From the NCBI GenBank assembly GCA_030649165.1, contig JAUSGG010000255.1, positions 1 through 41,023 of the forward strand: DNA of 41,023 nucleotides, read 5' to 3'. Shown here piece after piece: positions 11,360 to 32,900 of the stretch. The notes beneath the pieces were generated by a model. The model did no database searches. It was not told the origin of the DNA and saw nothing but the letters and a program-made list of their open reading frames with translations. The first letter of the stretch is position 1. The number at the start of each line of letters is the position of its first letter. This stretch comes from Armatimonadota bacterium (GTDB taxonomy: Bacteria; Armatimonadota; UBA5829; JAUSEB01). The position numbers were made by a program, and so were the translations under genes.

Positions 11360-13192
11360 CTAAGACCGCACCAGGATTGTGGCAGGGTAGGCCGAGCCGG
11401 CCAACGGCACGGTCTTTATCAAGACGGTGCGACTCTCATTTGGCCCAAGGATGTAGCGCGCCAGCGGGACTTCCCTCGGAGGGGCAATGTGAGTGACTTT
11501 AACGTACTTGCCGTCGATGAGGAAGACTCCGGACGCCAAGCCCGCGGCGGACTCGAAGAGTACATCTACGGATCTCTGCTCCGGATTCGGATTTGCTATC
11601 GCCAGTTTTATATCGTAGACGACGCCATAATTGCCGTACAACTGCTGCTCTTTGCTCACATCGGAGATGCCGTGTTTGCCGACCCGGATGAACGCCCATG
11701 CTTTTCCGACGATATACTCGGCGTCGATCGACTTCGTCGGCGACGGGAACACCCAGGGCGACAGAACGACTACTCCGTCCATCGGGCTCGCGGGCAGCGC
11801 GCAGCCTTCCGTGACAATGCCGTCTTCGACCAGGTCGGCCGATATGCGCAAGAACAGCGGTGGCCCCTCAAGCGCCCGGAACTGCATAATGCCGCTCGCG
11901 GTATACATCCTATCTACGACGCGACTGCATATCGCAACCCTGGACATCGGCGGCAGTTCGATTATCTCTCCGACATCGTTTATGTAATTCGGCAAAAACT
12001 GAACGCCCGCCCGGTATCCGACCGCAACGGTATCGATGAGAGGGTCGGGCGCGGCCTTAACGACCTGAACGCGCGCCGCGGTGGAGCCCGTGTTGATGAG
12101 CATTATGTTGAAGACGAACGGTTTGCCGATCATGTTCTGGTGATGGTAAAGCAGGCGCGTCGACTCGCCCGGCTCCAGCCGGCCCGCGAACAACGATCCG
12201 AACTTCTTGACCTGCTCGGGCGAATTGCTGTAGAAGAGCTTGCCCACCTCGGCCTTGGGCAGGGCCACGTTGACGATCCTTACCGTTGCCGAACCCGCCA
12301 CTGGGATATATCCCTCGCCCTCGATCCTGACGGGGAAGGTGAGATCGCCTTGGTAGCCCTGGGGTAAATCGGGCAGCTTGGTCGTAGGCGCCAACGCGGT
12401 GACGCGCGCGCCGGGTTCGAGGTCGGCGCTGGCGACGACGCGGCATCTGGCGGACCGCAGACACATTTCGGAAGGAGCAGGCGAGCCGGTCACCATCACG
12501 GTCCGTGGAATCTTCAACCTGCCCGCGTACTTGCGCACGGCAACGTTGATGCTGATGGTCATGTCGCCCCGAGTAACCGCGACAGCGGCCGAGCCCGGCG
12601 TGAGTCCCTTGACGATCAGTGTTCGCCCGTCCGGGCCGACAGTTGTCGAGCATACTTCAGGCCGCTGGTCGAAAACTGTAAAGGGAGCCGGCGACACGCC
12701 CCCGATTGTTACCTGGCGAGTCTCACCGAACGGGACTACGAGGTTCGCCGGCGTAACAGTCAGTGGCGGCGTTGCCAACAGCCAACGGATATTCGCCACC
12801 CAAGCCGCGGCAAGCTCGGTCGGCGATTGCGAGTGGGCGTTCGCCTCTCTCTTGTTGACCACGATAATCGGGGATTGGTTCCAGGTTATATCCGCGCGGC
12901 CCGCGCCGATCACTTTGAACTTGAGCGCCTGGCGGTCCGCGCCTGAGTCGACCATCGCCTGTAGTCGCGCAGCCACGATCCGCGCCCGCTGGGCCGGATC
13001 GAGAGGGCCGCTCGGAGTCAAGAGCTGGATAGCGATTCTATCGCTGATATGTATGGAAGCCGGTCCGGAAGGGATTCCGGGGATAACCTGAACTGTGACT
13101 TTGGGCCTGAATTGGGCGACAGCTTGCGTTGCTATCGCGAGAAACAGAAATGCGCTGGCGTTCACCAACGACGCGCGGCGCAGAAAACGCAT
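11360..13192 (-). CDS. Exported protein with Ig/pilus-N-like domain
   Basis: The 610-residue protein of unknown function has a cleavable signal peptide (FLFLAIATQAVAQ, about residues 15-27). Residues 32-135 resemble a periplasmic module I associate with some mechanosensitive-channel and RlpA-like proteins; the marker is REANAHSQSPTELAAAW followed by an IRWLL helix. Residues about 138-225 (PANLVVPFGETRQVTI to GLTPGSAAVAVTRGD) look like a bacterial Ig or pilus-assembly N-terminal domain. The remaining ~380 residues are predicted mostly beta and not recognised. The ATG at 13192 has GAGGAG upstream and its own consensus promoter. It is the last of six exported-protein genes in a row. Function is not assigned. 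Confidence 0.8.
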   Translation of the reverse strand: MRFLRRASLVNASAFLFLAIATQAVAQFRPKVTVQVIPGIPSGPASIHISDRIAIQLLTPSGPLDPAQRARIVAARLQAMVDSGADRQALKFKVIGAGRADITWNQSPIIVVNKREANAHSQSPTELAAAWVANIRWLLATPPLTVTPANLVVPFGETRQVTIGGVSPAPFTVFDQRPEVCSTTVGPDGRTLIVKGLTPGSAAVAVTRGDMTISINVAVRKYAGRLKIPRTVMVTGSPAPSEMCLRSARCRVVASADLEPGARVTALAPTTKLPDLPQGYQGDLTFPVRIEGEGYIPVAGSATVRIVNVALPKAEVGKLFYSNSPEQVKKFGSLFAGRLEPGESTRLLYHHQNMIGKPFVFNIMLINTGSTAARVQVVKAAPDPLIDTVAVGYRAGVQFLPNYINDVGEIIELPPMSRVAICSRVVDRMYTASGIMQFRALEGPPLFLRISADLVEDGIVTEGCALPASPMDGVVVLSPWVFPSPTKSIDAEYIVGKAWAFIRVGKHGISDVSKEQQLYGNYGVVYDIKLAIANPNPEQRSVDVLFESAAGLASGVFLIDGKYVKVTHIAPPREVPLARYILGPNESRTVLIKTVPLAGSAYPATILVRS

Positions 13193-13384: not shown

Positions 13385-14260
13385 CTATTTGGCCTCGATA
13401 GGAGCAATCGTTGTATCGTAAAGTTGCTTGGCGGCCTCTTTGGTTTCAGCAATCGCAATATGCGCCACGTCCGGCCAGTCCGCCTGAGTCAGCTTCGCCC
13501 CACCGAAGGCGAACCTCAAGTCTATGGGGTACACTGCCGGCGCGAGCCCGCTCTTGGCCGTCAAGGCGCCGGTGAACCGGCATACCTCCCCGGGTTTAAC
13601 GGCGTCCACCAGCGCCAGACTCCGCCGCTGCTTGCACCCCTTCTTCGAGACGACCGATACCTGCATCTTCTTGACGCCCTTCTCGATCAGGTAGTTGGCC
13701 AGGCTGCGCGGCATCTCGATTTCGACGGTTACGTTGAACGGCTCCGCCGGCAGGCCGTAAGACGGTTCCAGGATCACCCGTCGCGGACGCAGAGTCTGAT
13801 CCGAAACAACCGACTCTTTCTCGGACTCGTTTCGCGCCAGGATGACATCCCGCACACAAACCTTGCTGCCTATCGCCACAACATAGTTGGTATCGGCGGT
13901 CACGGGTTTGTAACCTTCCTTCTCCGCGTGGACGACGAGCGCTCCGGTGTTCTTCTGATAGTCGCGAAAACCGACAAATGGCTTCCAAGTTGTGCCCTTT
14001 CGACCGATCTCCACCTTGCCCTTGGCCGCGCCGGAGACATCGGTGACGGCCAAAGGCTTCTTGTCAGTTGACGGGTCGCTCGGCGGCCAAGACTGGCCGG
14101 CCTTCAAGAACCCGATCGAGGCCCCTTGCAGAGGCTGCATTGTGTCGGCATCGAGAACGACCACATGCGCTTCGCCGATGAGGGCCTTTGCGTAGGATGG
14201 CGGTCCGGCGGCCACGGTGAGAACCAGTAGGACCGGCAGGAACCAAAACCTGACATGCAT
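13385..14260 (-). CDS. Exported hypothetical protein, 291 residues
   Basis: An N-terminal signal peptide (FLPVLLVLTVAAGPPSYA) indicates export. The segment ALIGEAHVVVLDADTMQPL, followed by GASIGFLKAG and GALVVHAEKEGYKPV, looks like a carboxypeptidase-regulatory or transthyretin-like beta-sandwich (about residues 27-125). A second beta-rich domain (about 150-270) with cysteines in VSKKGCKQRR and GEVCRF follows. No catalytic motif is recognised. GGAGG lies 9 nt before the ATG at 14260. The gene is 55 bp downstream of the 827-frame lipoprotein gene, so co-transcription is likely. The function is unknown; a structural or binding envelope protein is a reasonable guess. Confidence 0.75.
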   Translation of the reverse strand: MHVRFWFLPVLLVLTVAAGPPSYAKALIGEAHVVVLDADTMQPLQGASIGFLKAGQSWPPSDPSTDKKPLAVTDVSGAAKGKVEIGRKGTTWKPFVGFRDYQKNTGALVVHAEKEGYKPVTADTNYVVAIGSKVCVRDVILARNESEKESVVSDQTLRPRRVILEPSYGLPAEPFNVTVEIEMPRSLANYLIEKGVKKMQVSVVSKKGCKQRRSLALVDAVKPGEVCRFTGALTAKSGLAPAVYPIDLRFAFGGAKLTQADWPDVAHIAIAETKEAAKQLYDTTIAPIEAK

Positions 14261-14315
14261 TTCGAGACACCTCCAAGTTTATTTTTGTTACGGTCTAACG
14301 AACCGCGCGTTCCGG

Positions 14316-16766
14316 CTACCACGGCGCGGGCGCAAAATACATTGCGTCGGCGTTAGCCAACAGATCGTCGATATCCTCTTTTTGTCCCACGTGCGCGCGC
14401 GCCAGAATATAACCAACGTAGGCGCGCTGGCGCGGGCGGGAGACTTTCGTGAATTGGCTGGTAGCCTGTTCGAGCAGACGAGCGCACATTCCGGCGTCGC
14501 TGCTCTTGGCCCTGATCGCGATCACGGCAAGAGCAAAAGCCTGCTTGGCCGGATCGGTGACGTTCCCGGCCAGGTCGAGCGCGCGTTTCGGGTCGAGCTT
14601 TGAATAGGTCGCGGCCAGGTCGCAGATCGCCTGGTTTTTCTCGTCGGCGTCGCCCAGCCTGGCGGCGTCGGAAGCGACCGATTCGAGCAACGTCTTCGCG
14701 CGAGCAGGATCGGTGTCGATGGTCGAGGCGGCAAGCAGTCTGGTGGCCTGGACTTTGTCGTAAGGCGAAGAGAGGGACCCGGTGACCGCTTCGACTCCCG
14801 ATGGATTGGTGGATCCCAGCCATGAGACAACAGTCGCCAGGTCTCTGGCCGCTGACTCGCGCTCTTCGAGATCTCCCTGTCCGCGCGTCGCCGCATAAGC
14901 GTCGTTGAACAAACCGACCGACCGAGGGTTATTCCTGGCTATCAGCATACTCGCGACGTACCGTTTGGCGCAATCGATCTCGACGCCCGTCAACTTGCTC
15001 TGCTCCAGGATATCCAAAGCTTTCTCGGGGTTGGCGTCGGCCATAATGACGGCGGCGCGGCGGTAGGCGTCCCTTTTCGTATCTTCATCCGTAATGCGTT
15101 GGAGTATGGTTTGCGATGAGTCCGGAAAACTGGCGGCCATCCTTTCGGCGAGGTGCTTGCCGAGGTAGGAAGACCACATGCTCTGCCCGTGACGGAGGAT
15201 AAAATCGTTCAAACCGAGCGATGCGCGGGCCTTTGCAAGATCGCGAGTTTTCTCGTCTACCTGGGGAGACAACAGCGCCGCGTCCGTCACAACCGCGAAT
15301 TCACCGCCGCGCATCTCGTTTCGAACCGCGTCCACAACCGCCGGGTTCATGAGCCAAAGCCGCTGTACGATGCCTTCCCACAATTGCCAGGTAAACAGGC
15401 GGTCCTGGTCGATCAGCTTTCGCATTTTGCGGGTCTCTCCCGCCATAACGATCTTGTGAGCAAGCGACCCCTGTCCGGTCTGATCGCGCGACTCCTTGCC
15501 CTGCGCCACCTTTTTCTCGACCGCCTGGAGGATCTGAGTCATGGCTTTCTCTCCGAATATCTTCTTCGCGAGATCGGGCTCATCGTTCATAATATCTTCC
15601 ATCAGGTTCCAGACAAGCCGCAGTCGGTCCGGGTCCTGCACGCTGAACTCGGCAAAGAGGGTGTGCATCTTGTCGCTCAATTCGTGTCCGGGGCGCTGAC
15701 GCGCGTGATCGATCGAAGCCTTCGCCCAGCGCGCCAGGATGTCCATCCCGGCGGCGTCGTAGGACTTACCCGCCTGCTCGTCAAGAAACGCCTGCGCCAG
15801 GTCGGTGTTGAGCGAGGAGAGATTACCCGCCGCGATTACACAGGCGGCGTCTCTATCGAGACCCGCTCGGAAGAGTTTGGCGCCGTCTTTTGGGCTCATC
15901 AAGCCGGTCAGAGCGGACGCCTGGGCGAACCACAGGCGGCCTCCAAACCCTTCGGCGCTCTTGTCGGAGGCGGCTTTGGCGAGTGATTCACAGCGAGTGG
16001 TGAGGTCCTTCGCGGCGGCGGGGTTGACCAGAAACAGCCGATGCGCGCCGTAGCATACATACTTGGCGATGTTGGCTTTCGCCCCGCCGCTGTCGCACTT
16101 TTCGGACGACTTTACCGCCTCGCTCAACGCCCTTATGCCGTCGGATTCTCGTCCATTGAGCAGGGCAATCTGCCCGATGTTGCACATCGCCCGCACGCGC
16201 CACAAGTCCTTCTTGATATGGCCGGCCGCGGAGAGCGCCAGACCGGGGTCCACCTTGGCGGTGCGCTGCAACTCATAAAGCAGGCTGGCGTAAATCTCCT
16301 CCTCGGTCTGGGCGGCCAGAACATTGTGGAGGTTCTGCGGTCGGTAGCCGGCGGCCATCGAGCCGAGCAGTCCTCCCGTTCCCTGCGCAAAGGACATGCC
16401 GACGGACTCCCCCCACGACATCTTTGGAGTGGAGGAATAGTAGCTCTTGCTCTGCATGTACTGAAACGTGCCCTGGAAAGCCGCGTCGAGCAGCATTTCC
16501 ATGAAGATCTTCGGGAATGGAGATGACCTTTCCGGAAGACTCTGCTCTACTCCCTCGATGGCCGAGCACAGGCTTTTCATGGCGCAATCGGAGGTCGCGG
16601 TTCTGGCGGCAGCCTCCTGCTCTCCGAGGGCCTGTGATTGCTGGCTTGACGCGGAGGCGACGCAAGATATGAGCAGCGCGCACACCAGCGCCGCACTGAT
16701 CGTCCGTCTTAGCAAACGGCGTCTCCGGCGGTCGTTGTTACGGTTTTCCGTCAAGCTTTCACCCAT
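14316..16766 (-). CDS. Helical-repeat exported protein, probable lipoprotein
   Basis: From the chosen start the protein has 816 residues. The n-region is very arginine-rich (DRRRRRLLRR), followed by a hydrophobic stretch ending LLISC, a plausible lipobox with C35 as the lipidated residue. The rest is alpha-helical with TPR/HEAT-like character, with many A-x2-A and L-rich helices. Examples are GLALSAAGHIKKDLWRVRAM, RDLATVVSWLG and ICDLAATYSKLDPKRAL. No enzyme motif is visible. The ATG at 16766 is preferred over the upstream start at 16799 because GGAGG sits 9 nt before it. It lies 74 bp after the Y-x-P repeat gene and would be co-transcribed. A scaffold role in an envelope assembly is a guess. 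Confidence 0.78.
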   Translation of the reverse strand: MGESLTENRNNDRRRRRLLRRTISAALVCALLISCVASASSQQSQALGEQEAAARTATSDCAMKSLCSAIEGVEQSLPERSSPFPKIFMEMLLDAAFQGTFQYMQSKSYYSSTPKMSWGESVGMSFAQGTGGLLGSMAAGYRPQNLHNVLAAQTEEEIYASLLYELQRTAKVDPGLALSAAGHIKKDLWRVRAMCNIGQIALLNGRESDGIRALSEAVKSSEKCDSGGAKANIAKYVCYGAHRLFLVNPAAAKDLTTRCESLAKAASDKSAEGFGGRLWFAQASALTGLMSPKDGAKLFRAGLDRDAACVIAAGNLSSLNTDLAQAFLDEQAGKSYDAAGMDILARWAKASIDHARQRPGHELSDKMHTLFAEFSVQDPDRLRLVWNLMEDIMNDEPDLAKKIFGEKAMTQILQAVEKKVAQGKESRDQTGQGSLAHKIVMAGETRKMRKLIDQDRLFTWQLWEGIVQRLWLMNPAVVDAVRNEMRGGEFAVVTDAALLSPQVDEKTRDLAKARASLGLNDFILRHGQSMWSSYLGKHLAERMAASFPDSSQTILQRITDEDTKRDAYRRAAVIMADANPEKALDILEQSKLTGVEIDCAKRYVASMLIARNNPRSVGLFNDAYAATRGQGDLEERESAARDLATVVSWLGSTNPSGVEAVTGSLSSPYDKVQATRLLAASTIDTDPARAKTLLESVASDAARLGDADEKNQAICDLAATYSKLDPKRALDLAGNVTDPAKQAFALAVIAIRAKSSDAGMCARLLEQATSQFTKVSRPRQRAYVGYILARAHVGQKEDIDDLLANADAMYFAPAPW

Positions 16767-16840
16767 ACTGGGAAACCTCCTGATCCGATCGGGTCGCAAT
16801 CGCGGCCCGCGCGACTTTGGTTTTCGCCACTAGCCCACGG

Positions 16841-19351
16841 CTAAGGAGCAGAACTGGCGCCGCTTGGCAGGACGGCGACCGCGCGGTATCGCTCACCGCT
16901 GACCTGGAAATCCCAAGCTGGCGCCGAGTCGCGCGGCCTGGCCGCAAGCGCCGCGTCCTTCATCTGATCGCCCTCTCCATTGTCGGCCTGGTACTCGTTG
17001 TTAGCTTTGAAATCAACGCCGCCGATCAGCGTGCAAGAGGCCATGCGGGTCAACGATCGGAACACATAGTCATTGCGGATCATCGGGGTGACTTCGGCGG
17101 TAGCCATCCATTCGATGTCATCCGGGGACAGCTCCGCGCGGTCCAGCGTTATGCTCTTTTCTTTCATCCACTTTACGACGCCGGCGATCTTCATGAGCTG
17201 GCGCAGTTCAGCGAAGACGGGAATCTCCTTCTCGTAATCATCGAAGCGCGCATTGATGTGATCGACAAACCTGCGCGCGGAAACGGTCAGCGCCTTGACG
17301 GGCGGCCCGGAAACCAGCTCCCAGCTTAGATCGACCGATGCTTCACGAAAGATGATCGACCGGCCGTCTTGGGACCGGGCGAGTATCATCTTTCGCGGAT
17401 GGAACCAGTATCTGATGACGGTAGGCTCCCTGTCGTTCCAGTTCGTATCGTAATCCAACGTCTCCGAAGCAAGAGCGGCGCGCCGCGTGGCTTCGGTCTG
17501 GAACCCGGGCACATTGCACGCGACGGGTTGGCCGGTGATGTTGTCTATGCCGGCTCCGAGCACTTTGAGCATACGATCGGCCTCGAAAAGGACACTCCCG
17601 AAACGGGTATTTTCCGTGTGGCCGTAATAGACCACCCTGCCAATGTCGTTCCGCCCCGGAATGGGCTCGATAGAAACACCCGGATCCTCAGAGTAATCGT
17701 AGACTGCTCGAACGGCGACGGTGACATCCTCGCGGTTCATCTTCGGAAGAGGCAGGTTGGTCTTTCCCACCAACACGAGCGATCCCGCGGAGGTATCGTA
17801 GAACGCTCCCTTGATATCCTTGATGTCGCCAAGGAACACCGCGGCTTTGTCGAGAAGGATGCCGCCCGGCTTGGCCAACGGGCGGATATCCATGCCGCTG
17901 TACGAGGGGAACTGCTTTACGCCGATCTCCCGGTCCGAGAAGCCGGCTCCTTTGAGGAAGTCATAACCATAAACCTTGGATATGGATTGGCGCGGTAAGC
18001 CGCGGGCGTCCCACGATTGGGAAAGCGTCGAGTATTGGTTCCTTATGTCACTTCGGACCCTGGACCACGCGAGGCGATCGCCGAGCGCCTCGGAACCAAA
18101 GTCGACGACGTCGGCGACTCCCCGCAGGACGGTTGAGGCTCCTTTCCCCCAGTACGAGCCTAGAGTTCCTACAGCGGATTTTGCCACAGGCTTGAAGGCG
18201 TCCATCGTGTCAATCCACGACGACCCTGCTCCCGACGAGCCGACAGGGCGGTATTCGCCCGCGGAGTAGACGTCGGTATAGCCGCGAGGACCGAACGTGA
18301 TGGTTCGAGACTCAGGCGCGTACGCGCCGTTCACGTACTTGTCCTGCCAGCGGAAAGGTCCGAACTCGATGATTCTGGAGCCGGGCGTGTACCTCGTTCC
18401 GGAAAACTGATCGTTCCAGCTTATCCCGCCGAAGCCGACCGTCCTGTCCAACGGCCGGTAGGCGCCGGACTGGAAAACGTCGTTGTACGTCACGTGTCCG
18501 AAGGAACGGCCCAGATCTATTGTCCTGCCTTGCGGCCGGTAACTGCCGCCGCTGAACTGATCGGCCCATGTAGTTGTCCCAAAAGGATGGCGGATCTCGA
18601 TATTCCGCGCGGCCGGGGCGTATTGGCCGGCGTTGAACCGGTCGGTCCAGGTGGTCGTCCCGAATGGATGGCTTATGCCGACGGCGCGCATACTGGGAAC
18701 ATAGCGGCCGCCGCTGTAACGGTCAGTCCACTTCACCGAACCGCCAAGGTATCGGGCGGACGCATTGAAACCGACGGTTCTGATCGACGGCTCATACCGT
18801 CGCCCGTTGAAAGTGTCGGACCACGAGGTCGAACCGAATCCCGCGTCGATAACGGTTGTTCTTGTTGACGGATTGTAGCGGCCGGAATTGCCGAAGTCAG
18901 CCCTTACGGTATCCCGGATCGAAGATGTCGCGACGGTGGAGTATTGGTATCCCGACAAAGCAGAATCCGTTTTCGGTGGAACAACAACCGTTGACCTGCT
19001 TTCCAGCCGTCCCTCGGGCGATAACAGCAGAGTCGCGTGAAGAAGTCCGCCGGAGTATACGTAGACCTTCACACGATCGCTGAGGTCCTCGAAATCGAGG
19101 TTGATTTCGAGGTCGCGCTGATCGGGCCGCAGATCCAGGTTGACGGTCTCCCTCGCTGCCTGCGACGTGAAGATGAGCGACACATTGCCTGAAGCGTCGC
19201 GCTGAACGGACGCCCGGAGGTCGCCCGGACCGGCGAATGTTGTCGGCGGGTCAGGCAAGGCGGCGCTTTGGGCTACAGCCGGAGTTCCTCCGGCGCTCAA
19301 TACTGTGAGCGCGAGCGCCAAGAACGCTGTCAATCTAATAGGCGTGCGCAT
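16841..19351 (-). CDS. Large exported protein with nine Y-x-P tandem repeats
   Basis: The 836-residue protein is secreted through a clear signal peptide (LTAFLALALTVLSAGGTPAVAQ). Residues about 155-383 hold nine tandem units built on G-x-Y-x-P-x2-R with a following W/Y-x-D-x-[FYM]. The tyrosines are spaced 27, 31, 27, 27, 27, 23, 23 and 23 residues apart. The C-terminal ~450 residues form a separate mixed alpha/beta region with VSIEPIPGRNDIGRVVYYG and FGSVLFEADRMLKVLGAG. That pattern is reminiscent of uncharacterised secreted proteins of planctomycetes and chloroflexi (low-confidence memory). The start at 19351 has GGAGG upstream; the longer frame to 19396 is less likely. It is 41 bp after the CsgG-like gene. 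No function is assigned. Confidence 0.8.
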   Translation of the reverse strand: MRTPIRLTAFLALALTVLSAGGTPAVAQSAALPDPPTTFAGPGDLRASVQRDASGNVSLIFTSQAARETVNLDLRPDQRDLEINLDFEDLSDRVKVYVYSGGLLHATLLLSPEGRLESRSTVVVPPKTDSALSGYQYSTVATSSIRDTVRADFGNSGRYNPSTRTTVIDAGFGSTSWSDTFNGRRYEPSIRTVGFNASARYLGGSVKWTDRYSGGRYVPSMRAVGISHPFGTTTWTDRFNAGQYAPAARNIEIRHPFGTTTWADQFSGGSYRPQGRTIDLGRSFGHVTYNDVFQSGAYRPLDRTVGFGGISWNDQFSGTRYTPGSRIIEFGPFRWQDKYVNGAYAPESRTITFGPRGYTDVYSAGEYRPVGSSGAGSSWIDTMDAFKPVAKSAVGTLGSYWGKGASTVLRGVADVVDFGSEALGDRLAWSRVRSDIRNQYSTLSQSWDARGLPRQSISKVYGYDFLKGAGFSDREIGVKQFPSYSGMDIRPLAKPGGILLDKAAVFLGDIKDIKGAFYDTSAGSLVLVGKTNLPLPKMNREDVTVAVRAVYDYSEDPGVSIEPIPGRNDIGRVVYYGHTENTRFGSVLFEADRMLKVLGAGIDNITGQPVACNVPGFQTEATRRAALASETLDYDTNWNDREPTVIRYWFHPRKMILARSQDGRSIIFREASVDLSWELVSGPPVKALTVSARRFVDHINARFDDYEKEIPVFAELRQLMKIAGVVKWMKEKSITLDRAELSPDDIEWMATAEVTPMIRNDYVFRSLTRMASCTLIGGVDFKANNEYQADNGEGDQMKDAALAARPRDSAPAWDFQVSGERYRAVAVLPSGASSAP
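18203..18889 (-). repeat. Coding tandem repeat array, 9 units of 23-31 codons
   Basis: This is the DNA for residues 155-383 of the exported protein above. Units share G-x-Y-x-P, an arginine three residues on, a short hydrophobic strand and W/Y-x-D. Five units are in the longer class (27 codons, one of 31) and the rest are in a 23-codon class, so the array looks like two successive amplifications. Nucleotide identity between units is low except for short stretches such as CCCGAATGGATGGC and CCAAAAGGATGGCGG, so the array is old. Confidence 0.85.
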
Positions 19352-19392
19352 AACAGGGCCTCCTTTGGCCATAAATCTGTACCGCCGACAGC

Positions 19393-20019
19393 TCACTTCC
19401 TGGCGGCGGCAATCGGCTTTACCAGATCGGATGCGGCGTCAGGAATAGTCTTCCCGCCACGGTAGTCTCCCATAACCACAAGAAGGATTTCATCCGTCTC
19501 CGCGTCCACGATCTGCAGAGACGCGGTGACGACGACGATGGGCTGGTCAAGAACGTCGGTAAGCGAGAGTTGCTTTGAGGGCGTCCACGCGCCCGATCTC
19601 AGTCTCTCTTCCAACATATTGCCGGAGATGACAGCCTCGGCCCGGGCGACCTTTGCCACATCGAGTATGGACACCGACGGCTGAGCGGCCTTAGTCTTGT
19701 CGGCGGTCGCGCTGTCGCGCCGGCCGAGATCATCAACGATCTTGTCAACCTTGGCTCGGGAAACTGTTTGAATGCCCAGGGACGATAACTCTATAGCCAT
19801 GGCGTCCTCCATCGCCCGGCTGCGCAGCGGATCACCGCCGTTAATGATCACTATCGCTCGGCGTATCGATTTGGCCCGTTCCGCCGATTGCGGAGCAACA
19901 GCGGTAGATCTCAACTGGGAAGGCTCTGTCGCGGACGCCGAGGTCAAACCCTGCGCCCACACCCCAGGCATAATGCCGCCCGCTACAATTACCGCGATTG
20001 CCAGTCTACACGTCCTCAT
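19393..20019 (-). CDS. CsgG/LpoB-like exported protein
   Basis: The 208-residue protein carries a signal peptide (LAIAVIVAGGIMPGVWAQ) without an obvious lipobox. The body follows the CsgG/LpoB/GNA1162 fold plan: an initial strand (RAIVIINGG), a helix (RSRAMEDAMAIELSSLGI), the QTVSRAKVDKIVDDL stretch, VARAEAVISGNMLEERL, then VVVTASLQIVDAETDEILL with the D-x-x-T-x-E-I pattern. CsgG forms the outer-membrane curli secretion pore, whereas LpoB activates a peptidoglycan synthase, so the family alone does not decide the role. It lies between the propeller/LolA-like gene (82 bp upstream) and the repeat-protein gene (41 bp downstream), all read leftwards. The assignment is by pattern only. Confidence 0.68.
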   Translation of the reverse strand: MRTCRLAIAVIVAGGIMPGVWAQGLTSASATEPSQLRSTAVAPQSAERAKSIRRAIVIINGGDPLRSRAMEDAMAIELSSLGIQTVSRAKVDKIVDDLGRRDSATADKTKAAQPSVSILDVAKVARAEAVISGNMLEERLRSGAWTPSKQLSLTDVLDQPIVVVTASLQIVDAETDEILLVVMGDYRGGKTIPDAASDLVKPIAAARK

Positions 20020-20101
20020 AATGCTTTCCTCCGATTCATTTTATTTTGCTCTCACCGGCTTGCCGTGTGCGGCTAGTCCGGCTGTCAGTCCGTTGCATGG
20101 T

Positions 20102-22615
20102 TCAGAGTTCAACCTTGGACGACCCGGATGGGACTCTAGGATCGAACAGATCATCGTGGGGATTCGCCTCTGTATTCCAATCCGTTATGGTCACGTCAAT
20201 ATCGGGCGTCTGGCCGACGGCTACCTGTAGACGTTTCGGATAGCCTGTTTTCTTGTCCAACCATAACACAAATGCGGAGGACATCCAATATTCCCGCGAA
20301 ATTGTGTCACCAAGAACCCAAATAAGATAGCTCGACCGCGGAGTGAGCAGCGCCTTGACGTCGCCGGTTTCGTCGTCATTCTCCACAACGCGCAGCACGT
20401 CGGACGGAAGATCGCCGGCGATGCTCCCGAAAAGGACATCGCAGGGTCGCTTTTGCGTCCGCTTGCTGAGTTGCTCGATGGCGCCGTGGAATGAAGAAAC
20501 CAATGATGTCGGGTTAACGGGCGCGTGGGGCGCGTCCACGAGGCCGCTAACCGTGAAGTCTACGTGTTCGTCTTTTGGACCCAGTTCGTCGGGTTTGGTC
20601 TTGCTGATCTTGGGACGCCTGTCTTTGCCGATCGCGATTCCCGAATGATAGTCACGGCTGGCGTAAGCAACCAGGCTTTCTCCATTGCGGATAAGGGTTG
20701 CCCTGGCGCGATAGCTCTCATGACTCTCCAGCAAATCCACCCTGAGACGATCCGGTGGTCTGATTATGAGCGTTCCGGCTCCTGATGCAACGGGACATCC
20801 CGAGGCGGCGGTCCTTACCGTTATCCTTGCTTGTATGGACTTGGCGCCGACAGGGTTCTTGGGCAGGAGATCGTCGCGCGAAGGCCCTTCAAGAGCCTTG
20901 GCGACAGACTTGAACGGCGGCAGGCGCAGCCGCTCCCCTGTCCCCAATGTCAGCTTGCGGAGCGAGTTCTTGCCGTCGCGCGAAGATACCGAATAGATCA
21001 CCGTTCGACCGTCCGGCGTCCACGCGAACGATCGCGGCAGCCCTTGGGAGCAGGGGATGAAGACGGTATCGGGTGGAGAAGCGGGAAGCTGAAGTATGCA
21101 GAATCCCGGCGGATCCGTCCGCGTCACCGCCAACAGCTTGTTTCCGTGGCCGGACAACGCTATGCCCGGATGAACCAGGAACGATCCCGGCATGACGAGG
21201 CTTCGCTCCGACCCCTTCTCGGACATTCGGTAGATTCCCGCCGGACTGCCCGGTTTGTAGCTTATGAAGTAGATTTGCCGATCAGTTCTATTCCAAACAG
21301 GGCAGAAGTCGAATGCGCCGGTGTCTCCAAGCGCGACGGGCGAGCCGCCATCCTTGGGAATTCTGACAATGCAGGCCCCGGCGAACTCTTCGCCGCCCGC
21401 GCCAAGCGTGACGCAGTGAGCGAGCAGCGTCCCATTGTCCACCCACTCCGAATGTCCGTAAAGGCTGCCTGGAAGCGTCACCCCTTTCTCGTGAGACGCG
21501 TCGGCTCGCGTGGTAACCAGCGCGCCGAGGCCCAATTCTCCGAACAGGCCAGGCTGGGGTAGCGTAAACACTATGCTCTCACGATCAGGCGACAACCTCG
21601 CGTGGCCTCCAACGCGGCCAAACGGGTGGAGCTTCGCTTCGTCGATAAGCCGGATTTTGGATGTCGCCGTGACGGCTTCTCCCGTTGGCGGCGCCGCGCG
21701 CCCCGCGATGAGCGCAAGCCGGCCGTCGGGCGAGACGGAAACTTCCCGACCCTCCGGCGTGTCAAAAGGAACATCGGCTTCGGCGACGAGGTTCAGGCCG
21801 TCAACCGAGCTAAGCCAATCGGCGACAGCGGTCGGCGAGGCGCGATCCGGGGCGGTCGCCGTCGCTCTTAGTTGCGCCTTCGCCTGAAGAAAACCTTCCC
21901 TGCCGCCAAATCGATCTATACATGCCAGCAGCGCGTCCAAGGCGGCGACCGTTCGCTTCTCGGCTTCCGCCCGTATCGATTGTTCGGGCATGCCCGACCG
22001 CTCAGCGGCGACCTCGGCCAGAATATCGCCGGGGCCCCAGTCGTCCGTCAAATCCCACAAGGCGTATTGCGCCGCCAGATATTGGCTGCCGTATTCGGCT
22101 CCGTTTACGGGCTGCGCCTGGTTATCCGTCGTGGTTGAGTCGGCGAGGGCCGCGGTCGTCTGCCCGCTCTGGGCCATGGCCTGCAGCGCCGACAGGATCG
22201 ACGAACCGCTTTCGGGCGGAAGGATTTCGTACTTGTAGTCCTGCAATCCAGGCCAGTCGGCGGGAGGCGCTAAGCGCGCGTTGACACTCAGCGTTTCGAC
22301 GAAAAAAGCCTGCTCGTGGGAGCGGGGAACGATCGTAATAGTCTGGTCGCGGGCGGCGACGAGCCCTTGGACCGTCCCACGCGAGGAAACAAATCGCGTC
22401 CCCACCGGGACGGAGATGCGGCAGGTGTTCCGCGATTCATTCGAGAGGATTAGTTTGACCCGGTCGGATCGGCCTGTCCCCAATATCGAGTCAACAGCGA
22501 CCATTCCGTTTTGCGTCCGGACATCCGCAAGGGTCCGGTCAGACGCGCGGATGGGACCGGCTATCAGCGCGACCAGAATGGCGATAGTATGTAACGACCT
22601 CTTCGTCGTGTTCAT
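20102..22615 (-). CDS. Exported beta-propeller and LolA-like protein
   Basis: The 837-residue protein begins with a signal peptide (HTIAILVALIAGPIRA). Residues about 30-135 form a beta domain (VKLILSNESRNTCRISVPVG) followed by a helical linker. Residues about 270-600 are TolB/PD40-like propeller blades: REVSVSPDGRLALIAG, HARLSPDRESIVFTLP and FAWTPDGRTVIYSVSSRDG. The final ~240 residues look like a LolA-type lipoprotein-binding fold (GAGTLIIRPPDRLRVDLL, FVLWLDKKTGYPKRLQVAV, ITDWNTEANPHDDLFDPRVP). The ATG at 22615 is chosen; the frame is open to a TTG at 22663, but the signal peptide fits the ATG. No strong ribosome site is visible. It is first in the exported gene run, behind a consensus promoter. 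A role in lipoprotein or sugar handling is only inferred. Confidence 0.78.
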   Translation of the reverse strand: MNTTKRSLHTIAILVALIAGPIRASDRTLADVRTQNGMVAVDSILGTGRSDRVKLILSNESRNTCRISVPVGTRFVSSRGTVQGLVAARDQTITIVPRSHEQAFFVETLSVNARLAPPADWPGLQDYKYEILPPESGSSILSALQAMAQSGQTTAALADSTTTDNQAQPVNGAEYGSQYLAAQYALWDLTDDWGPGDILAEVAAERSGMPEQSIRAEAEKRTVAALDALLACIDRFGGREGFLQAKAQLRATATAPDRASPTAVADWLSSVDGLNLVAEADVPFDTPEGREVSVSPDGRLALIAGRAAPPTGEAVTATSKIRLIDEAKLHPFGRVGGHARLSPDRESIVFTLPQPGLFGELGLGALVTTRADASHEKGVTLPGSLYGHSEWVDNGTLLAHCVTLGAGGEEFAGACIVRIPKDGGSPVALGDTGAFDFCPVWNRTDRQIYFISYKPGSPAGIYRMSEKGSERSLVMPGSFLVHPGIALSGHGNKLLAVTRTDPPGFCILQLPASPPDTVFIPCSQGLPRSFAWTPDGRTVIYSVSSRDGKNSLRKLTLGTGERLRLPPFKSVAKALEGPSRDDLLPKNPVGAKSIQARITVRTAASGCPVASGAGTLIIRPPDRLRVDLLESHESYRARATLIRNGESLVAYASRDYHSGIAIGKDRRPKISKTKPDELGPKDEHVDFTVSGLVDAPHAPVNPTSLVSSFHGAIEQLSKRTQKRPCDVLFGSIAGDLPSDVLRVVENDDETGDVKALLTPRSSYLIWVLGDTISREYWMSSAFVLWLDKKTGYPKRLQVAVGQTPDIDVTITDWNTEANPHDDLFDPRVPSGSSKVEL

Positions 22616-22723: not shown

Positions 22724-22752
22724 ATTGTAGGCCGCCCGCCTGGCGGTGTCAA
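22724..22752 (-). promoter_or_regulatory. Sigma70-type promoter of the exported-protein gene run
   Basis: On the minus strand a perfect TTGACA (22752-22747), a 17-bp spacer and TACAAT (22729-22724) lie about 110 bp before the ATG at 22615. The spacer is a GC-rich near-palindrome (CCGCCAGGCGGGCGG), a place where a regulator could bind. The leader of about 100 nt has no obvious known riboswitch. Confidence 0.72.
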
Positions 22753-22900
22753 CAGCAGATCGCAGGCCACCGGTTGATGGTCGGCGGTTATCCTTTCGCA
22801 GCCGACCCTTCCACCCATAGCGTCCAGGCTGTATAATAGGCCAGATGGTTGGGTGAACGGAGCCAGCCAACAACTAACAACCTGGGTATATACTGTCGTG

Positions 22901-22914
22901 CCCGACAAATCGGG
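22901..22914. promoter_or_regulatory. Possible operator of the toxin-antitoxin pair
   Basis: CCCGA (22901-22905), spacer CAAA and TCGGG (22910-22914) form a short perfect dyad directly before the GGAGG of the antitoxin-like gene. A TATAAT-like -10 lies at 22832-22837 without a convincing -35. Toxin-antitoxin pairs commonly bind such dyads to repress themselves; here this is an inference from position. Confidence 0.35.
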
Positions 22915-22926
22915 ACGGAGGTGGAT

Positions 22927-23187
22927 ATGGCCGGACTGAAACACATGGATGTCGTGCCGGGGCAGGCCGATCAGGCGTGCGGCGAGATTCGACGCATGAC
23001 CGCGGATGAGGTGGAGAAGACCCTGAGCTTCATACTCTCTCTTGTCGCCGGCAGGCGACAGGGAGAGACGCGGACCGGCAAACCCGAGCGGCTGCTGCTG
23101 CATCTGAACAAGTGGAGCTTCAACGAGGGTGAGAGGGCAAAGCTGCTCGAAGAACTGGCGCGGATGAGAAGAGGCGCGCGACCATGA
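22927..23187 (+). CDS. VapB-like antitoxin candidate
   Basis: This small protein of 86 residues has no recognised DNA-binding motif in the sequence I can read. The start at 22927 is supported by GGAGG 5 nt upstream; the frame is open further to 22849 but lacks a ribosome site there. It is charged and helical at its C-terminus (NEGERAKLLEELARMRRG). Its stop overlaps the PIN-domain gene start as ATGA, the usual layout of toxin-antitoxin operons, and this context is the main reason for the call. The middle stretch MTADEVEKTLSFILSLVAG may be a dimerisation helix. It could instead be an unrelated small regulator. Confidence 0.6.
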   Translation: MAGLKHMDVVPGQADQACGEIRRMTADEVEKTLSFILSLVAGRRQGETRTGKPERLLLHLNKWSFNEGERAKLLEELARMRRGARP

Positions 23188-23588
23188 CGGCTTATCTTAT
23201 CGACACGGACCACCTTATCGGGCTCGTGGGCTCTGAGGAGCGGATCGTCGATCGAATGCGGAGGCCGGGCAAGAACGGCGACACGTTCAGTATCTGCGCC
23301 ACGGTTTTGTCGGAGCTTTACTGGTTCGCCAAATCCACAGCGCAAATGGATACGAATACCGCGTGTCTGACTGAGTTGGTCGCGGACCTGCCGGTATGGG
23401 AGATGGGCAGGGGCGCGGCGGAGATTGTTGGCGAGATACTATCCGAGCACAGGTCGCTCGGGACGCCAATCTCGCGTGCCGTCGCGGAAGTATCCGCCGT
23501 CGCGAGGCAGCGGCAACTGGTCGTGCTTTCGTCCGACCCGGACTTCCGCGCGGTAAGGGACATACGGGTGGAGGATTGGCGGGGATAG
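23184..23588 (+). CDS. PIN-domain protein, VapC-like toxin
   Basis: The 134-residue length is standard for VapC ribonucleases, which cleave tRNA or rRNA until bound by their antitoxin. Three of the usual acidic positions are visible: D7 in YLIDTDHL, E44 in TVLSELYWF and D118 in LSSDPDF. The third one, normally a D in the GTPI-x3-D-x2-IAA segment, is absent; this protein reads GTPISRAVAEVSAVA with V100 in that place and E102 two residues on. Activity is therefore uncertain. It overlaps the antitoxin-like gene by 4 bp. The C-terminus ends normally (RDIRVEDWRG). Confidence 0.82.
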   Translation: MTAYLIDTDHLIGLVGSEERIVDRMRRPGKNGDTFSICATVLSELYWFAKSTAQMDTNTACLTELVADLPVWEMGRGAAEIVGEILSEHRSLGTPISRAVAEVSAVARQRQLVVLSSDPDFRAVRDIRVEDWRG

Positions 23589-23851: not shown

Positions 23852-23890
23852 TGAGGCGTTATCAACTTGGGCTTTCCGGGAGGCAACGTT

Positions 23891-25195
23891 TTGGACATGC
23901 ACGGTAATAGTATCTGTTATCGCCTGTTTCTGTTGATGTCGGTTTGCGCGGCGTTGGTTTGTCCCGCCGCGGTGGCAAAGGCGGCCGACAGCGCCTGCGT
24001 GACCTGCCACAAGTCTGTGACCCCGTCGATCGTCGGACAGTGGCGCGAGGGGAAACACGCGAAGCGCGGCGTGGATTGCACGGGATGTCACGCGGCGCGG
24101 AAAGGCGCTCCGGGAGCACAAGAGCACATGGGCGCGGGCTATATTACGCCGGTTGTCAGCCCGAACGCCTGCGGCAAGTGCCATCCACGTGAGCAGAAGG
24201 AGTTTACCGCCAGTCACCATTCCAAGGCGGCCAAGTTCATCGGATCGCTGGACAACGTCCTTGGCGAGATGGTGGAAGGCGGACCGGCGGCGAACAGCGG
24301 ATGCAAACAGTGCCACGGCAGCACGGTTAAGGTAGATCAGGACGGCAAGCTCGATGCCGCCACTTGGCCCAACTCCGGCATAGGCAGAGTCAACCCGGAT
24401 GGCTCGGAGGGAGCATGCTCAGCTTGCCACTTCCGGCACACTTTCTCCAGGGCGCAGGCAAGAGAGCCGGAGATGTGCGGCAAGTGCCACATGGGCCCGG
24501 ACCACCCACAGATCGAGATTTACAACGAGTCGAAGCACGGCTTGGCGTTCAAAGCGCACAGGTCGAAGATGAACTTGGAGAGCGACAAGTGGGTTGTGGG
24601 GCAGGACTATACGGCCGCGCCGGCGTGCGCGACGTGCCACATGTCCGCCACACCGGATCAGCCGGTTACTCACGACGTAGGCGCGCGGATAAGCTGGACG
24701 CTCCGACCGGCGATCTCGATCAAGCTGGAGAACTGGGAAACGAAGCGGGCGAATATGCAGGGCGTGTGCGCGCAGTGCCACTCCCGGTCTTACGTCAAAA
24801 GCTTCTACACGCAGTACGACAGCGCGGTCGATCTCTACAATGAGAAATTCGGAAAGCCGGCCAAGACGGTTATGGATAAGCTGTACGCCGAGAAGCTGCT
24901 GACAACCACACCGTTCGACGAGAAGATCGAGTGGACCTACTATCTGATGTGGCATCACGAAGGCAGGCGCGCCCGCCACGGCGCCTCGATGATGGGACCG
25001 GACTACACCCAGTGGCACGGGTTCTTCGAGGTGGCGAACAGGTTCTATAACGAGCTGTTGCCGGAGGCGGAGGAGCTGAAGAAAGGCGTGACGCAGGAGA
25101 TCCTCGCACAGGATTACCATAAGTGGAAGTCAGGCCTGAGTAAGGAGGAAAGAGAGAAGATACTGGAGTTCTACAAGACCAGGTACGGAGAGTAG
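23891..25195 (+). CDS. Octaheme cytochrome c, hydroxylamine oxidoreductase family
   Basis: The protein (about 434 residues) is exported by a signal peptide (FLLMSVCAALVCPAAVAKA) and has exactly eight CxxCH heme sites, with first cysteines at 36, 63, 94, 138, 176, 196, 246 and 293. After the sixth heme comes MGPDHPQIEIYNESKHG. Its D204-H205 pair corresponds to the active-site Asp-His of hydroxylamine oxidoreductases as I recall it. The C-terminal YLMWHHEGRRARHG and MMGPDYTQWHGFFE are family hallmarks. Y372 is the candidate heme-crosslinking tyrosine, which would mean an oxidative rather than reductive enzyme. The start is a TTG 7 nt after GGAGG; an ATG two codons later is an alternative. No haoB, NapC-like or quinone-linked partner gene is adjacent. 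Confidence 0.92.
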   Translation: MDMHGNSICYRLFLLMSVCAALVCPAAVAKAADSACVTCHKSVTPSIVGQWREGKHAKRGVDCTGCHAARKGAPGAQEHMGAGYITPVVSPNACGKCHPREQKEFTASHHSKAAKFIGSLDNVLGEMVEGGPAANSGCKQCHGSTVKVDQDGKLDAATWPNSGIGRVNPDGSEGACSACHFRHTFSRAQAREPEMCGKCHMGPDHPQIEIYNESKHGLAFKAHRSKMNLESDKWVVGQDYTAAPACATCHMSATPDQPVTHDVGARISWTLRPAISIKLENWETKRANMQGVCAQCHSRSYVKSFYTQYDSAVDLYNEKFGKPAKTVMDKLYAEKLLTTTPFDEKIEWTYYLMWHHEGRRARHGASMMGPDYTQWHGFFEVANRFYNELLPEAEELKKGVTQEILAQDYHKWKSGLSKEEREKILEFYKTRYGE

Positions 25196-26966: not shown

Positions 26967-29900
26967 ATGTTAGCAAGTAAATGGCCGAACAGAGCAATTG
27001 TCGTGGCCGCGGCGATCCTACTCATTGCAGCGTTCGCCGTGACACCACTGGTTGCGGAAGTCAGCGTCCACTCATCAGGACGCTACTATCAGGACTCAAA
27101 CGGAAAACCGGTGTTCCTGATAGGGTACTACGACTGGGCGGCAACGGTCGATGGCTATTACATCGATCAACCGTCACGTTACGACACAATGATTACTCTG
27201 GGGGCGCCGTACAAGGTCAACTACATCCGCATGGTCCTTGGCGGCAACAAGGTCAATGGCTCCAGCAATCCGCCAAGCTATAATGGCCAACAGGCCCCTG
27301 TTCCCTGGCTGCTGGTGAACGGCAAAGCCGATATGAACCAGTGGGACCCCGCATTCTGGACTGGCGTTAAGGCCCAGTGCCAGTTTGCCAAAGCCAACGG
27401 GGTCATCATCCACTTCGGCTTCTTCGACGGCGTGTCTATGCGGACTCAGGGAGGAGCATCCTATGGCTACTCGGGATCCTTCTGGAATCCGGCAAACCAG
27501 ACAGCGTCCTTCTACCCGAATCCGGATTTCAACGGCAATGGGCAGATTGATGACAATGGCGAGTTCTACCAAACCACCAACTTCAACAACAATACCGGCA
27601 TAGGCTATTATCAGCGCGCTCTGATAGACAAAGGCTGTTCCGAGTTGGCTGCCTATGACAACGTCTTCTTAGAAGTCGGAAACGAGCTGTTAGGCTCCTC
27701 CTCGGCCTGGAACACGACTGTCATTTCCTACATAAAGACAAAGACGGCCAAACCGATAACAACAGTCGGTTACAACGGAAGCGGAATGCAGGGCTATTCC
27801 GACCACATCGATGACACCGTCGCCGAACTCAAAGCCTCACTGGCGTCCATGGTCGGCCTCGGTTTTCCGGCATGGGTCGATCCGGATGGATCGGGAATCG
27901 CATACCTTCCTCCGGATGGTATTCGCCAGTGCTATTGGACTTCGCTCGCTAGTGGCGCCGCCGCCTATGGCGGGTTCACCACCGACTTCTGGACCTGGCC
28001 CACTAACCCTCCTCCGGGCTTCAACACCCTGAAGGGCGTCTATTGCAAGAACCTGCAGGACTTCCTGACCACAACTGCTTGTCCATTCTGGACTATGGTC
28101 CCGCAGTCAAGCCTGGTCACCAACAGCACCGTAAACTGCTGCATTGCGAATCAAGGCTCTACATACCTTGCGTATATCTTGAGCGACGCCACGGCCGATG
28201 TTAACCTGACATCCGTCAGCGGCAACGCCTACTACAAGCTCTATAATCCCGCATCTGGAACGTACAGCGGGCAAAGCACAGTTGCCGGTGAAGCATGGCG
28301 CTCCTTCAGCAGACCCGCCGGCGCGAGCGACTGGGTGATATACATCTACACCACCCTTCCCAGCCACGGCCAGCTTAACGTAAAAGCGGCCGGCACGTAT
28401 ACCATCGACGGTAACCCGAACGACTGGAACTTCGGTAACTACTCCTCGATGATATACGGCGGCGGCTCCGGCGCGGGTGACATCGCCCTCACGGGATACG
28501 ACCTCGGCCTTTTGCACTACGCCTCCTATGCAGGCGTCCTGCCGACCAGCGCAACCGATCACACCGCCAAGGTCTACACGTCCCACGATTCAACTTACGA
28601 GTACTTCCTGGTCAGGTGTGACGACGATGACATGCGTTACAGCGCCCCGACCAGCTCAAACTGGGCTAACGACTGCGTGGAGTTCTACATGGATCCAGCC
28701 AACAGCGGCGGATCGACGGCAATCAGCAACTCCACCTCCGACATTCAGCTAGTCATCGACGCGAACAACCAGAAGAATGTCTACATGACAACTTCGGGTT
28801 ATGCCACCCAGATTCTGAATGGTGTGACGTCTGGTGTGCAGAGAGACAGCACGGGTTGGTGGCTTGAGGCCAGGATAACGAAGTCCGCTCTCGATCCCGA
28901 CCTGCCGTCGTCCGGGACGTTCGGCTTGGACTTCAACTTCCGCGACAACGACAACGACAACGACGCGGCGCTAACCACGGTTTACACCTGGAACGACGCC
29001 AGCGGAAGCGGCTTCCCGAGCAAGATTCCTGACAACTGGGGAGACGCCTTCCAAATCGCGCCCGGTGAGACCCCGTATGGCGGCAGCTCAATAAATCTTC
29101 CCGGAACCATCCAGGCGGAGAACTTCGACAATGGTGGCGAGGGAGTCGCTTACCACGACACCGAGTCCACCAACTACGGCGGCGCGTTCCGAACCAGTGA
29201 AGGCGTGGACATCGCGTCAACATACGACACTGGCGGCGGCTACGAAGTTGGATGGGTACAACCAAACGAGTGGCTGAACTACATGGTGTACGTAAACGCC
29301 ACCCGCGCCTACGACATCAACATGCGCGTGTCAGGTGGCGGTGGTAACTTCCACATCAACATGGACGGCCAGAACGTAACAGGCACCAGAACCACCCCCA
29401 ACACTGGGTCGTGGGGGACCTATGCCACCTACACCGTTCCTTCTATTCAGTTGGCGGCGGGCTCTCACGTGCTCACGGTAGTCGCGGAAACCGCCGGATT
29501 CAACCTCAACTATATCGACGTAGTTGTTCCTCCTGTCTACTGGAACACGCTGGGCACATTGCAGAACATCGGCAGTGGCACTATGCCTCAGGTATGCGTA
29601 GATTCGTCGAACAATATACATGTCGCTTACGCAGCCGGCAATGGAGTTACCTATAAGAAGTACAACTCTTCGTGGACGCTCCAGACTTCCGAGACGATAA
29701 CTTCACCCTCCGGTGGCGCGTACTGGCCGCATATGATGCTCGACTCCAATGCCGTCCCGCATCTCGTATTCACCGAGGGCGTAACCGCATCGCTGCCTTA
29801 CGCCTCATATCTCTATTACACGAACCGCATAGGCGGAACCTGGAAGTCGGTCGTTACCGCGCTGAACCTGGCGGGAACCGGCAACAGCGTTTGGAATCCC

Positions 29901-32900
29901 AGACTTGCGCTGTATAGCACTTACGCCTACATTGGCTCCCAATACGGCTACAACCAGAGTCTCATAGGCCGAATCGACAGGCTAACAAACCTGAGCTCAA
30001 CTCCATCAGTTGACGCATCCGTAAACACATCGATTCGCTCTCTGGTCGCGGCGACCACCAACGGAAACATATTCGCTGTTGGCCGCAACACCTTGAGCAC
30101 AGGCGTCCAGGAGTACAACTCGGGTCTGGGTTTGGTTGGCGGCCCATGGAGTATGACTAACGGCACCGGCAAGGCCGGAGCTCCCGCCGCGGCATGGACA
30201 GACAAGTACAACATAGTCCATATGGTTGCTTGGGGCATTATGGCTGGAGGCAGTGGCCAGTGCGCGGACCGTTGTGGATTGATCTATAACCACACCGGCA
30301 GACGCAATGGCGACGGCAGCTTCTACAACTCAATAAACGGCATGCTTGGTGACAGCGGGGCAGTCGGCCCCGATCCTTCATCGCCTACCGGATGGTGGAA
30401 TGACGACGTGGCTCCTGCAATATGCAGAGACGGCCAAGATGTAGTTTACGTCGCATGGCGAGACAATTCCGCGTCCGGCGAAGGAAGAATCAGCAAGGTG
30501 GACGATTCGAGTTGGACCCAGTCCTGCAAGAGTTCACTATGCGGAGACACCACCTGCACAGGAACGCAGTTTGCCCAGACGCTCACCCGACGCAGATGGT
30601 GGAACTGCGAGTTGGCCCCTGCCGCAACCGGCGGTGGAGTCTATGTCGCGTATGAAAACGGCGGAACATGCTACATCCAGCCCGTCGGCGTTACGGCCGC
30701 CGTAGATACTACAGCGCCCGGAAACATCACCAGCTTCAGCGTTCGCGCTGAACAGAGCATGAACGTCCTGACCTGGACCAACCCCGGCGACTCGGACCTG
30801 AGCGGTATCAAGATCGTATTCAAGACCACCGGTTATCCGACCAGTACAACTGACGGAAACACCTGCTACGATGGTCTCACGACGAGCTATACTCACAACG
30901 GCCTGACAAATGGCACGACCTACTACTACAAGGCATTTGCTCACGATGCAGCTCCTAACTATGCGTCCGGAGCAACGGCCAGCGGCACACCCGCTACTGA
31001 TAGCACGGCCCCCGGAAACGTGACGAGCTTTACGGCAACCCCGGGAGACACGCAGGTCAGCTTGTCTTGGACCAACCCGACTGATACGGATCTTTATGGC
31101 ATTAAGATCATGTTCAAGACGACGGGTTATCCGACCGGCACGGCGGATGGAACACAGTGCTACAATGGTATGGGCACGAGCTACGTCCACACCGGTCTGA
31201 CCAATGGCGCTACCTACTACTACAAGGCGTTCGCCTACGATGAGGTCCCGAACTACGCAACGGGCGCCACGGCGAGCACATCGCCATACGATCCTCAGAC
31301 CCCTTACTCCGGCGTCATTTCGCTGCCCGGAACCATCCAGGCGGAGAACTTCGACAATGGCGGCGAGGGCATAGCCTATCACGATACGACATCCGGCAAC
31401 ACTCCGGGGGCGTATCGTTCGACTGATGTCGACATCGAGACTTGCTCCGACACTGGTGGAGGCTATGATATCAGCTACGTCGCGGCGGGCGAGTGGCTCG
31501 AGTACAAGGTCAATGTGACCACCACTGGAGACTACAGCATCGGCGTTAGAGTGGCGCTCAATACCGGCGCCGGCGGTTACCGAGTCAAAATCGACGGTAC
31601 CGATGTAACCGGAGCCAGAAACTTCGCGGCCACCGGCGGTTGGCAGACATGGACGACCATTATCACCCCGTCCGTATATCTAACTGCCGGCCAGCATGTC
31701 CTTCAACTGTATGTGGACTCCGGCGCCGCGAACATGAACTACGTCGACGTCATCAGCAGAGGACCTGACGCGGTCTCTATAGACCTCGACAGTACCAACG
31801 TCGAAGACGGCATGACCTGTGTGACCGGCGTCGGCGATGGCGACACTGTGGCGTGGTCCGCGGCGGGTCACAACTTCCGCGAGAACGTCGACTATCCCGA
31901 CGTCTACATGTACTTCACCGTGACTGACGGCTGGGCGTATCAAGGCAGCAAGCAGGACGTCTACATCACGTGCGACTACTACGACATCGGCACAGCCACG
32001 CTGGGTCTGGACTACGACTCCACAAGCAGTTCCTACCAGCACGTAAATGGCCCGACCCTTGGCAACACACTGACGTTTAAGAGCTACACCTTCCACGTCA
32101 CCAACGCCTACTTCGGCAACAGAGAGAACGGTGGAGCTGACTTCAGATTCACCATCTCCAGCCAGCAGGAGTGGGGCATTGACACGGTCGGTGTGTATCA
32201 GTCGACTGCTGACGTTACTCCTCCGGCCAATGTGACCGGCTTTACCGCCACACCCGGTAACCAGCAGAACAGCCTGTCCTGGACTAACCCGACTGATCCG
32301 GACTTCACCGGAACGATGATCCGGTTCAAGACCACTGGTTATCCAACCAGCGCGTCGGACGGAACCCATATCTACGACAGCAGCGGGACGAGCTACAACC
32401 ATACGGGTCTGACCAATGGGACGACCTACTACTACAAGGCGTTCTCTCACGACGTCATTCCCAACTACGCCTCCGGATCTCAGACCAGCGGTACTCCTGC
32501 CGACACGACTCCTCCGGCGAACGTAACGAGCTTCATAGCCACATCCGGAGACCTGCAGAACAGCCTGTCCTGGACTAACCCGACTGATACGGACCTGACC
32601 GGTATCAAGATTATGTTCAAGACCACCGGTTATCCGACCAGCGTGACAGACGGAACGCAGTGCTACGATGGACTTGGAACAAGTTACGCGCACACCGCTC
32701 TGACCAATGGGACGACTTACTACTACAAGGCGTTCGCCCACGACGGAGTTCCTAACTACGCTTCGGGCGCCACGGCAAGCGCGGTTCCGGCTGACGTAAC
32801 GGCTCCTGCAAACGTGACGAGTTTTGCGGCGGTATCCGGTGACACGCAGAACGTCTTGTCTTGGAACAACCCCGCTGACGCGGACTTTGCCGGAGTCAAG

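Follow-up and report, generated by a model that had tools for sequence, protein, structure and literature searches.

Five consecutive genes on the minus strand of an Armatimonadota contig (positions 22615-13385) encode proteins that all look exported, and one of them resembles proteins of the CsgG/LpoB type. Do these genes specify an undescribed envelope system, perhaps one that works in the manner of curli export? The window analyzed here is one whole contig (41,023 nucleotides) of a 5.48 Mb draft genome. A preliminary description, made from its sequence alone, had raised this question and had grouped a sixth exported gene with the five. Its observation of the run is confirmed and its analogy with curli is not supported; the notable result is that the C-terminal half of the repeat-bearing product is a widespread, nearly undescribed domain, which that description had missed, as it had missed that the sixth gene encodes a separate, phylum-conserved protein.

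Layout and conservation of the five-gene run

The five open reading frames lie as previously listed (Table 1), with intergenic distances that range from a 4-base overlap up to 82 bases; the overlap, with the 208-aa gene, arises from an upstream GTG start of the 851-aa frame at position 19396. The promoter-like site that had been placed ahead of the run is indeed present. Together with a second site, TTGACA-17-TAGAAT (positions 13262-13234; 11/12 match), which precedes a separate gene for a 610-aa protein, it is one of the best two among nine sites found, against 3.5 expected in shuffles, and no match as strong as that at 22752-22724 lies between the genes of the run. The GC3 of the five genes is high (0.68-0.75), and their GC and GC3 resemble those of the flanking genes, which supports their being real coding sequences with no sign of foreign composition.

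Table 1. Features of the five-gene run in the window
Feature	Position	Strand	Description
Propeller gene	20102..22615	(-)	837 aa from ATG; N-terminal domain, TolB-type PD40 propeller, weak DUF2092 (LolA-like) C-terminal match
208-aa gene	19393..20019	(-)	Exported single-domain protein, CsgG superfamily by sequence; no lipobox, no second membrane hairpin
851-aa ORF (836 aa from ATG 19351)	16841..19396	(-)	Signal sequence and beta-rich N-terminus; then nine Y-x-P repeats, a linker and the C-terminal domain
Y-x-P repeat array	18212..18877	(-)	Residues about 174-395 in the 851-aa frame
Widespread C-terminal domain	16952..17902	(-)	Residues about 499-815; distant DUF1598 match
827-aa ORF	14316..16799	(-)	Helical-repeat protein, LISC lipobox, probable lipoprotein
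291-aa gene	13385..14260	(-)	Exported, no family match, beta-rich by eye
Sigma-70-like promoter TTGACA-17-TACAAT	22724..22752	(-)	Upstream of the five-gene run; 11/12 match

All six proteins, the 610-aa protein included, possess a hydrophobic N-terminal stretch of the signal-peptide type (12-residue Kyte-Doolittle means of 2.2-2.8). These calls come from a rule-based heuristic (hydrophobicity and a lipobox pattern) and not from SignalP; by the same rules, a lipobox is found solely in the 827-aa protein. As had been stated, none of the genes of the run matches an enzyme family in Pfam or NCBIfam scans, and Rfam gave no match in the window. A role in defense was considered and rejected, as PADLOC returned only a chance-level match to Csm2 (E 0.007).

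Conservation was assessed in 61 genomes, which comprise the genome of the window and 60 relatives (one from the same family, the rest from the same order, class or phylum). Outside its own genome, no full-length relatives of the 208-, 827-, 291- and 837-aa proteins were found in this set. The propeller protein is represented by propeller segments and one N-terminal match only, the 827-aa protein by weak tandem repeat matches to a protein of genome G050 (L018), and the 851-aa protein by relatives that match through its C-terminal part only. None of the five genes has a full-length relative in these genomes; therefore, the gene order, whose conservation had been suggested as a check, is not kept in any of the relatives searched. 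Because no relative searched preserves the operon, a joint function of the five products is without comparative support. Nor were any of the window's other proteins found at the loci of the C-terminal-domain relatives.

The 610-aa exported protein (11360-13192), which has a weak DUF3370 match, is present in 52 of the 61 genomes, with 61% identity in the same family, and the five-gene neighbors are absent there; it is therefore the product of a separate, conserved gene. Its own promoter stands as previously described, whereas its membership in a system with the five was rejected, since it is conserved by itself while the five have no full-length relatives.

The 208-aa protein and the accompanying exported proteins

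Neither Pfam nor NCBIfam provides a match for the 208-aa protein. Against a CsgG profile built from 17 CsgG-domain proteins of relatives, it attains 11.3 bits in hmmsearch, while the best of 500 shuffles reached 6.0. With hhalign, it aligns to CsgG at 83% (E 9e-6), whereas 82 unrelated proteins stayed at or below 2.2% and its own reverse also fell far below. The single credible distant match in 291 genomes of the phylum bridges the two: this G154 protein (L119), a probable lipoprotein of likewise 208 aa, matches the CsgG profile (E 6e-15) as well as the window protein, and has the same short end. Judged by its sequence, the window protein thus belongs to the CsgG superfamily, as had been proposed, and it shares the core pattern of the CsgG family (PF03783) and E. 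coli CsgG over residues 63-184.

It differs from CsgG in the features that would make a pore. Its N-terminus contains no lipobox ([LVI][ASTVI][GAS]C pattern), and when it is aligned to CsgG and LpoB of E. coli, only a few residues remain at the second membrane hairpin, which is absent likewise in the G154 protein; its first hairpin segment is not Gly-rich in this alignment. The two barrel-building membrane hairpins of CsgG were accordingly not recognized in it. As lipobox and second hairpin are lacking, a curli-type pore is not supported, and by these features the protein is not a CsgG pore. In the same alignment, E. coli LpoB, a lipoprotein whose tether is long, is a short, hairpin-less exported domain like the window protein; the window protein, however, has no lipobox, and its likeness to LpoB itself may not be significant. 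A phmmer search of the PDB gave chance-level matches only. The AlphaFold model of the lone sequence (pLDDT 38.8) is too poor to use and its Foldseek matches are meaningless; its order of strands and helices fits CsgG, which we do not count as evidence. The 208-aa protein also demonstrates that poreless CsgG-superfamily domains reach below the detection level of Pfam.

The presence of a propeller in the 837-aa protein is borne out by matches to PD40 (E 2e-6) and TolB (E 7e-8), while the LolA-like end ascribed to it corresponds to a DUF2092 match below the cut-off (E 0.003). The PD40 repeats are common to this protein and the TolB propeller (TIGR02800), but its flanking domains differ, and with 31.8 bits against an equivalog cut-off of 343 bits it does not match Tol-Pal TolB at the equivalog level. 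The earlier view of the 827-aa product as a helical-repeat probable lipoprotein agrees with its LISC lipobox and with the weak tandem matches in G050, from which its helical-repeat character is taken. The 291-aa protein has no family match in Pfam or NCBIfam.

The repeat protein and its C-terminal domain

Both halves of the repeat protein had been correctly perceived. Its nine Y-x-P motifs, spaced by 27, 31, 27, 27, 27, 23, 23 and 23 residues, exceed what 2000 shuffles of the protein yielded (mean 2.0, maximum 8), and in the model, at moderate confidence, short and long beta strands alternate along the array. The repeats are real and not detectably of the RHS/YD type: against an RHS profile built from 7 units only, the array did not outscore its shuffled or column-permuted versions and reached 0.1% in hhalign, and Pfam RHS had no match in the 851-aa protein. 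A globular C-terminal half is predicted with confidence for the greater part of residues 515-845 (pLDDT means of mostly 78-97 per 10 residues). Foldseek found nothing in the PDB or BFVD for the full 851-aa model at E <= 0.001, and the domain profile had no match in the PDB; the N-terminal half of the model, which is of low confidence, could mask a match to the domain and leaves a new fold unproven.

The C-terminal domain, about 300 aa long, is found in 21 of the 291 genomes of the window's phylum, and a scan of GTDB genomes that started from relatives in the phylum revealed 18 loci that carry it. Metagenomic bins with the domain are labeled Chlamydiae, Parachlamydiales, planctomycete, Chloroflexi, Uhrbacteria, Omnitrophota, Proteobacteria, Spirochaetaceae, Nitrospira, Hebobacteria, Armatimonadetes, marine bacterium B5-7, a Micrarchaeota and a Methanoperedens bin; the one isolate is Agaribacillus aureus. 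Bacteroidota is among the phyla concerned. By bin labels, the domain spans about ten bacterial phyla. Such labels can be wrong, so the two archaeal occurrences are tentative. Most often the domain is fused to RHS/YD repeats, and it stands before or between them in L041-L046, L049, L050 and L054. It is also found combined with a CHAT domain (L045), TPRs (L050 and, by eye, L057) or a second copy of itself (L056, L062); an insertion seems to interrupt it in some class-mates of the window's bacterium, and G001 has it together with PDZ domains.

The alignment of the domain contains invariant T, G, D, K and R residues with near-invariant neighbors around ENT-x-FG-x-x-LFEADR-x-LK, and an R-x-W motif. 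Five of 20 members match DUF1598 (PF07643) in a scan to E 0.1 (best E 2.3e-4), and the matches seen fall at one motif, Y-x-G-x-x-ENT-x-FG-x-x-LFEADR-x-LK. The scored matches stay under the 25-bit cut-off, with none above the gathering score in 12 domain-carrying genomes; the window protein itself has no match, and about 300 aa of domain compare with 84 positions of DUF1598. NCBIfam has nothing for the members, and DUF1598 or PF07643 is not mentioned in the literature searched. Hence, beyond sub-threshold DUF1598, the domain is unnamed in Pfam and NCBIfam. It is a mobile, extracytoplasmic domain that recurs in many secreted architectures and is nearly undescribed in family databases. Its description would annotate many RHS-type proteins, and the window protein is a compact member of the domain family without RHS. 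That it represents an undescribed extracytoplasmic superfamily with a new fold, which bacteria, and possibly archaea, use as an interchangeable module on repeat proteins of the RHS, TPR, PDZ and other types, with the Armatimonadota operon as a self-contained display system for it, is a bolder proposal that we regard as rather unlikely.

Several loci deserve separate mention. Two-copy domain proteins are encoded directly downstream of a TPR protein in L056 (466-11546) and L116 (6512-11451); the L056 run also includes VWA-FHA and MotA/ExbB-type genes, and L058 shows a similar pairing of TPR and domain protein. The genome of the window itself contains a second DUF1598-like region (contig C158, 22160-23174; L081, L084) that extends over two frames and is possibly a broken gene.

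Possible roles of the five products

From the layout, we infer cautiously that the five genes form a lineage-specific operon for an assembly of extracytoplasmic (surface or periplasmic) proteins, a reading that is plausible and falls somewhat short of probable. The layout with its promoter, the export signals of all five products, the one lipobox, the TolB/PD40 propeller, the CsgG-superfamily match and the secreted architectures of the C-terminal domain count in its favor. The 836-residue protein would be the likely effector or structural component, whose beta-hairpin Y-x-P array might space or display the C-terminal domain; in other phyla, RHS repeats, TPRs or PDZ pairs carry this domain. The four other products would assist or anchor it as periplasmic or outer-membrane helpers: the poreless CsgG/LpoB-type protein as a docking or activating factor, the TolB-like propeller protein as a helper with a possible LolA-type lipid-binding end, the 827-aa helical-repeat lipoprotein as a scaffold, and the 291-aa protein as an Ig/beta-sandwich-like helper. 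The data establish the layout, the export-type N-termini, the profile relationship to the CsgG superfamily and the existence and spread of the C-terminal domain; the cooperation of the five, their location and each role are inferred, the helper roles from fold names only.

On present evidence, it is equally likely that the run is a loose neighborhood of orphan exported proteins, evolving fast and sharing one promoter but no common machine. The lack of full-length relatives of all five proteins in the 61 genomes fits this explanation, as do their native composition and the fact that their domains alone recur, each in different contexts; the tight spacing behind one strong promoter match, with none equally strong between the genes, and the exported appearance of all five speak against it. 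Since RHS is the usual fusion partner of the C-terminal domain, the Y-x-P units might also be diverged YD repeats that form the shell of an RHS-like display or delivery protein. Most domain relatives outside Armatimonadota do bear RHS repeats, and Y and R are similarly spaced in some units by eye; the RHS comparisons reported above argue against such a shell, which we deem improbable. Least credible, and very improbable in our estimation, is a curli-like nucleation-precipitation export in which the 208-aa protein would form the pore in the outer membrane, with the Y-x-P protein as its fibre-forming substrate. The adjacency of a CsgG-superfamily protein and a repeat protein had suggested it, but apart from the missing pore features, the curli system has CsgE/CsgF partners and short curlin-repeat subunits, whereas the proteins of the run match neither CsgE nor CsgF in the family scans, the repeat units are of the Y-x-P type and 23-31 aa long, and the supposed substrate, of 836 aa, includes a globular domain whose predicted pLDDT is mostly 78-97.

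Beside the operon proposed here, the window contains two small plus-strand frames divergent from it (22849-23588; 112 and 134 aa), which, judged by eye alone, look like a toxin-antitoxin pair of the VapBC type. It also encodes a multihaem cytochrome c (23867-25195; Multi-haem_cyto, E 1.7e-29), whose hydrazine dehydrogenase match is far below the cut-off, and a 2756-aa protein with the carbohydrate-binding modules CBM6, CBM9 and CBM35 (26967-35237).
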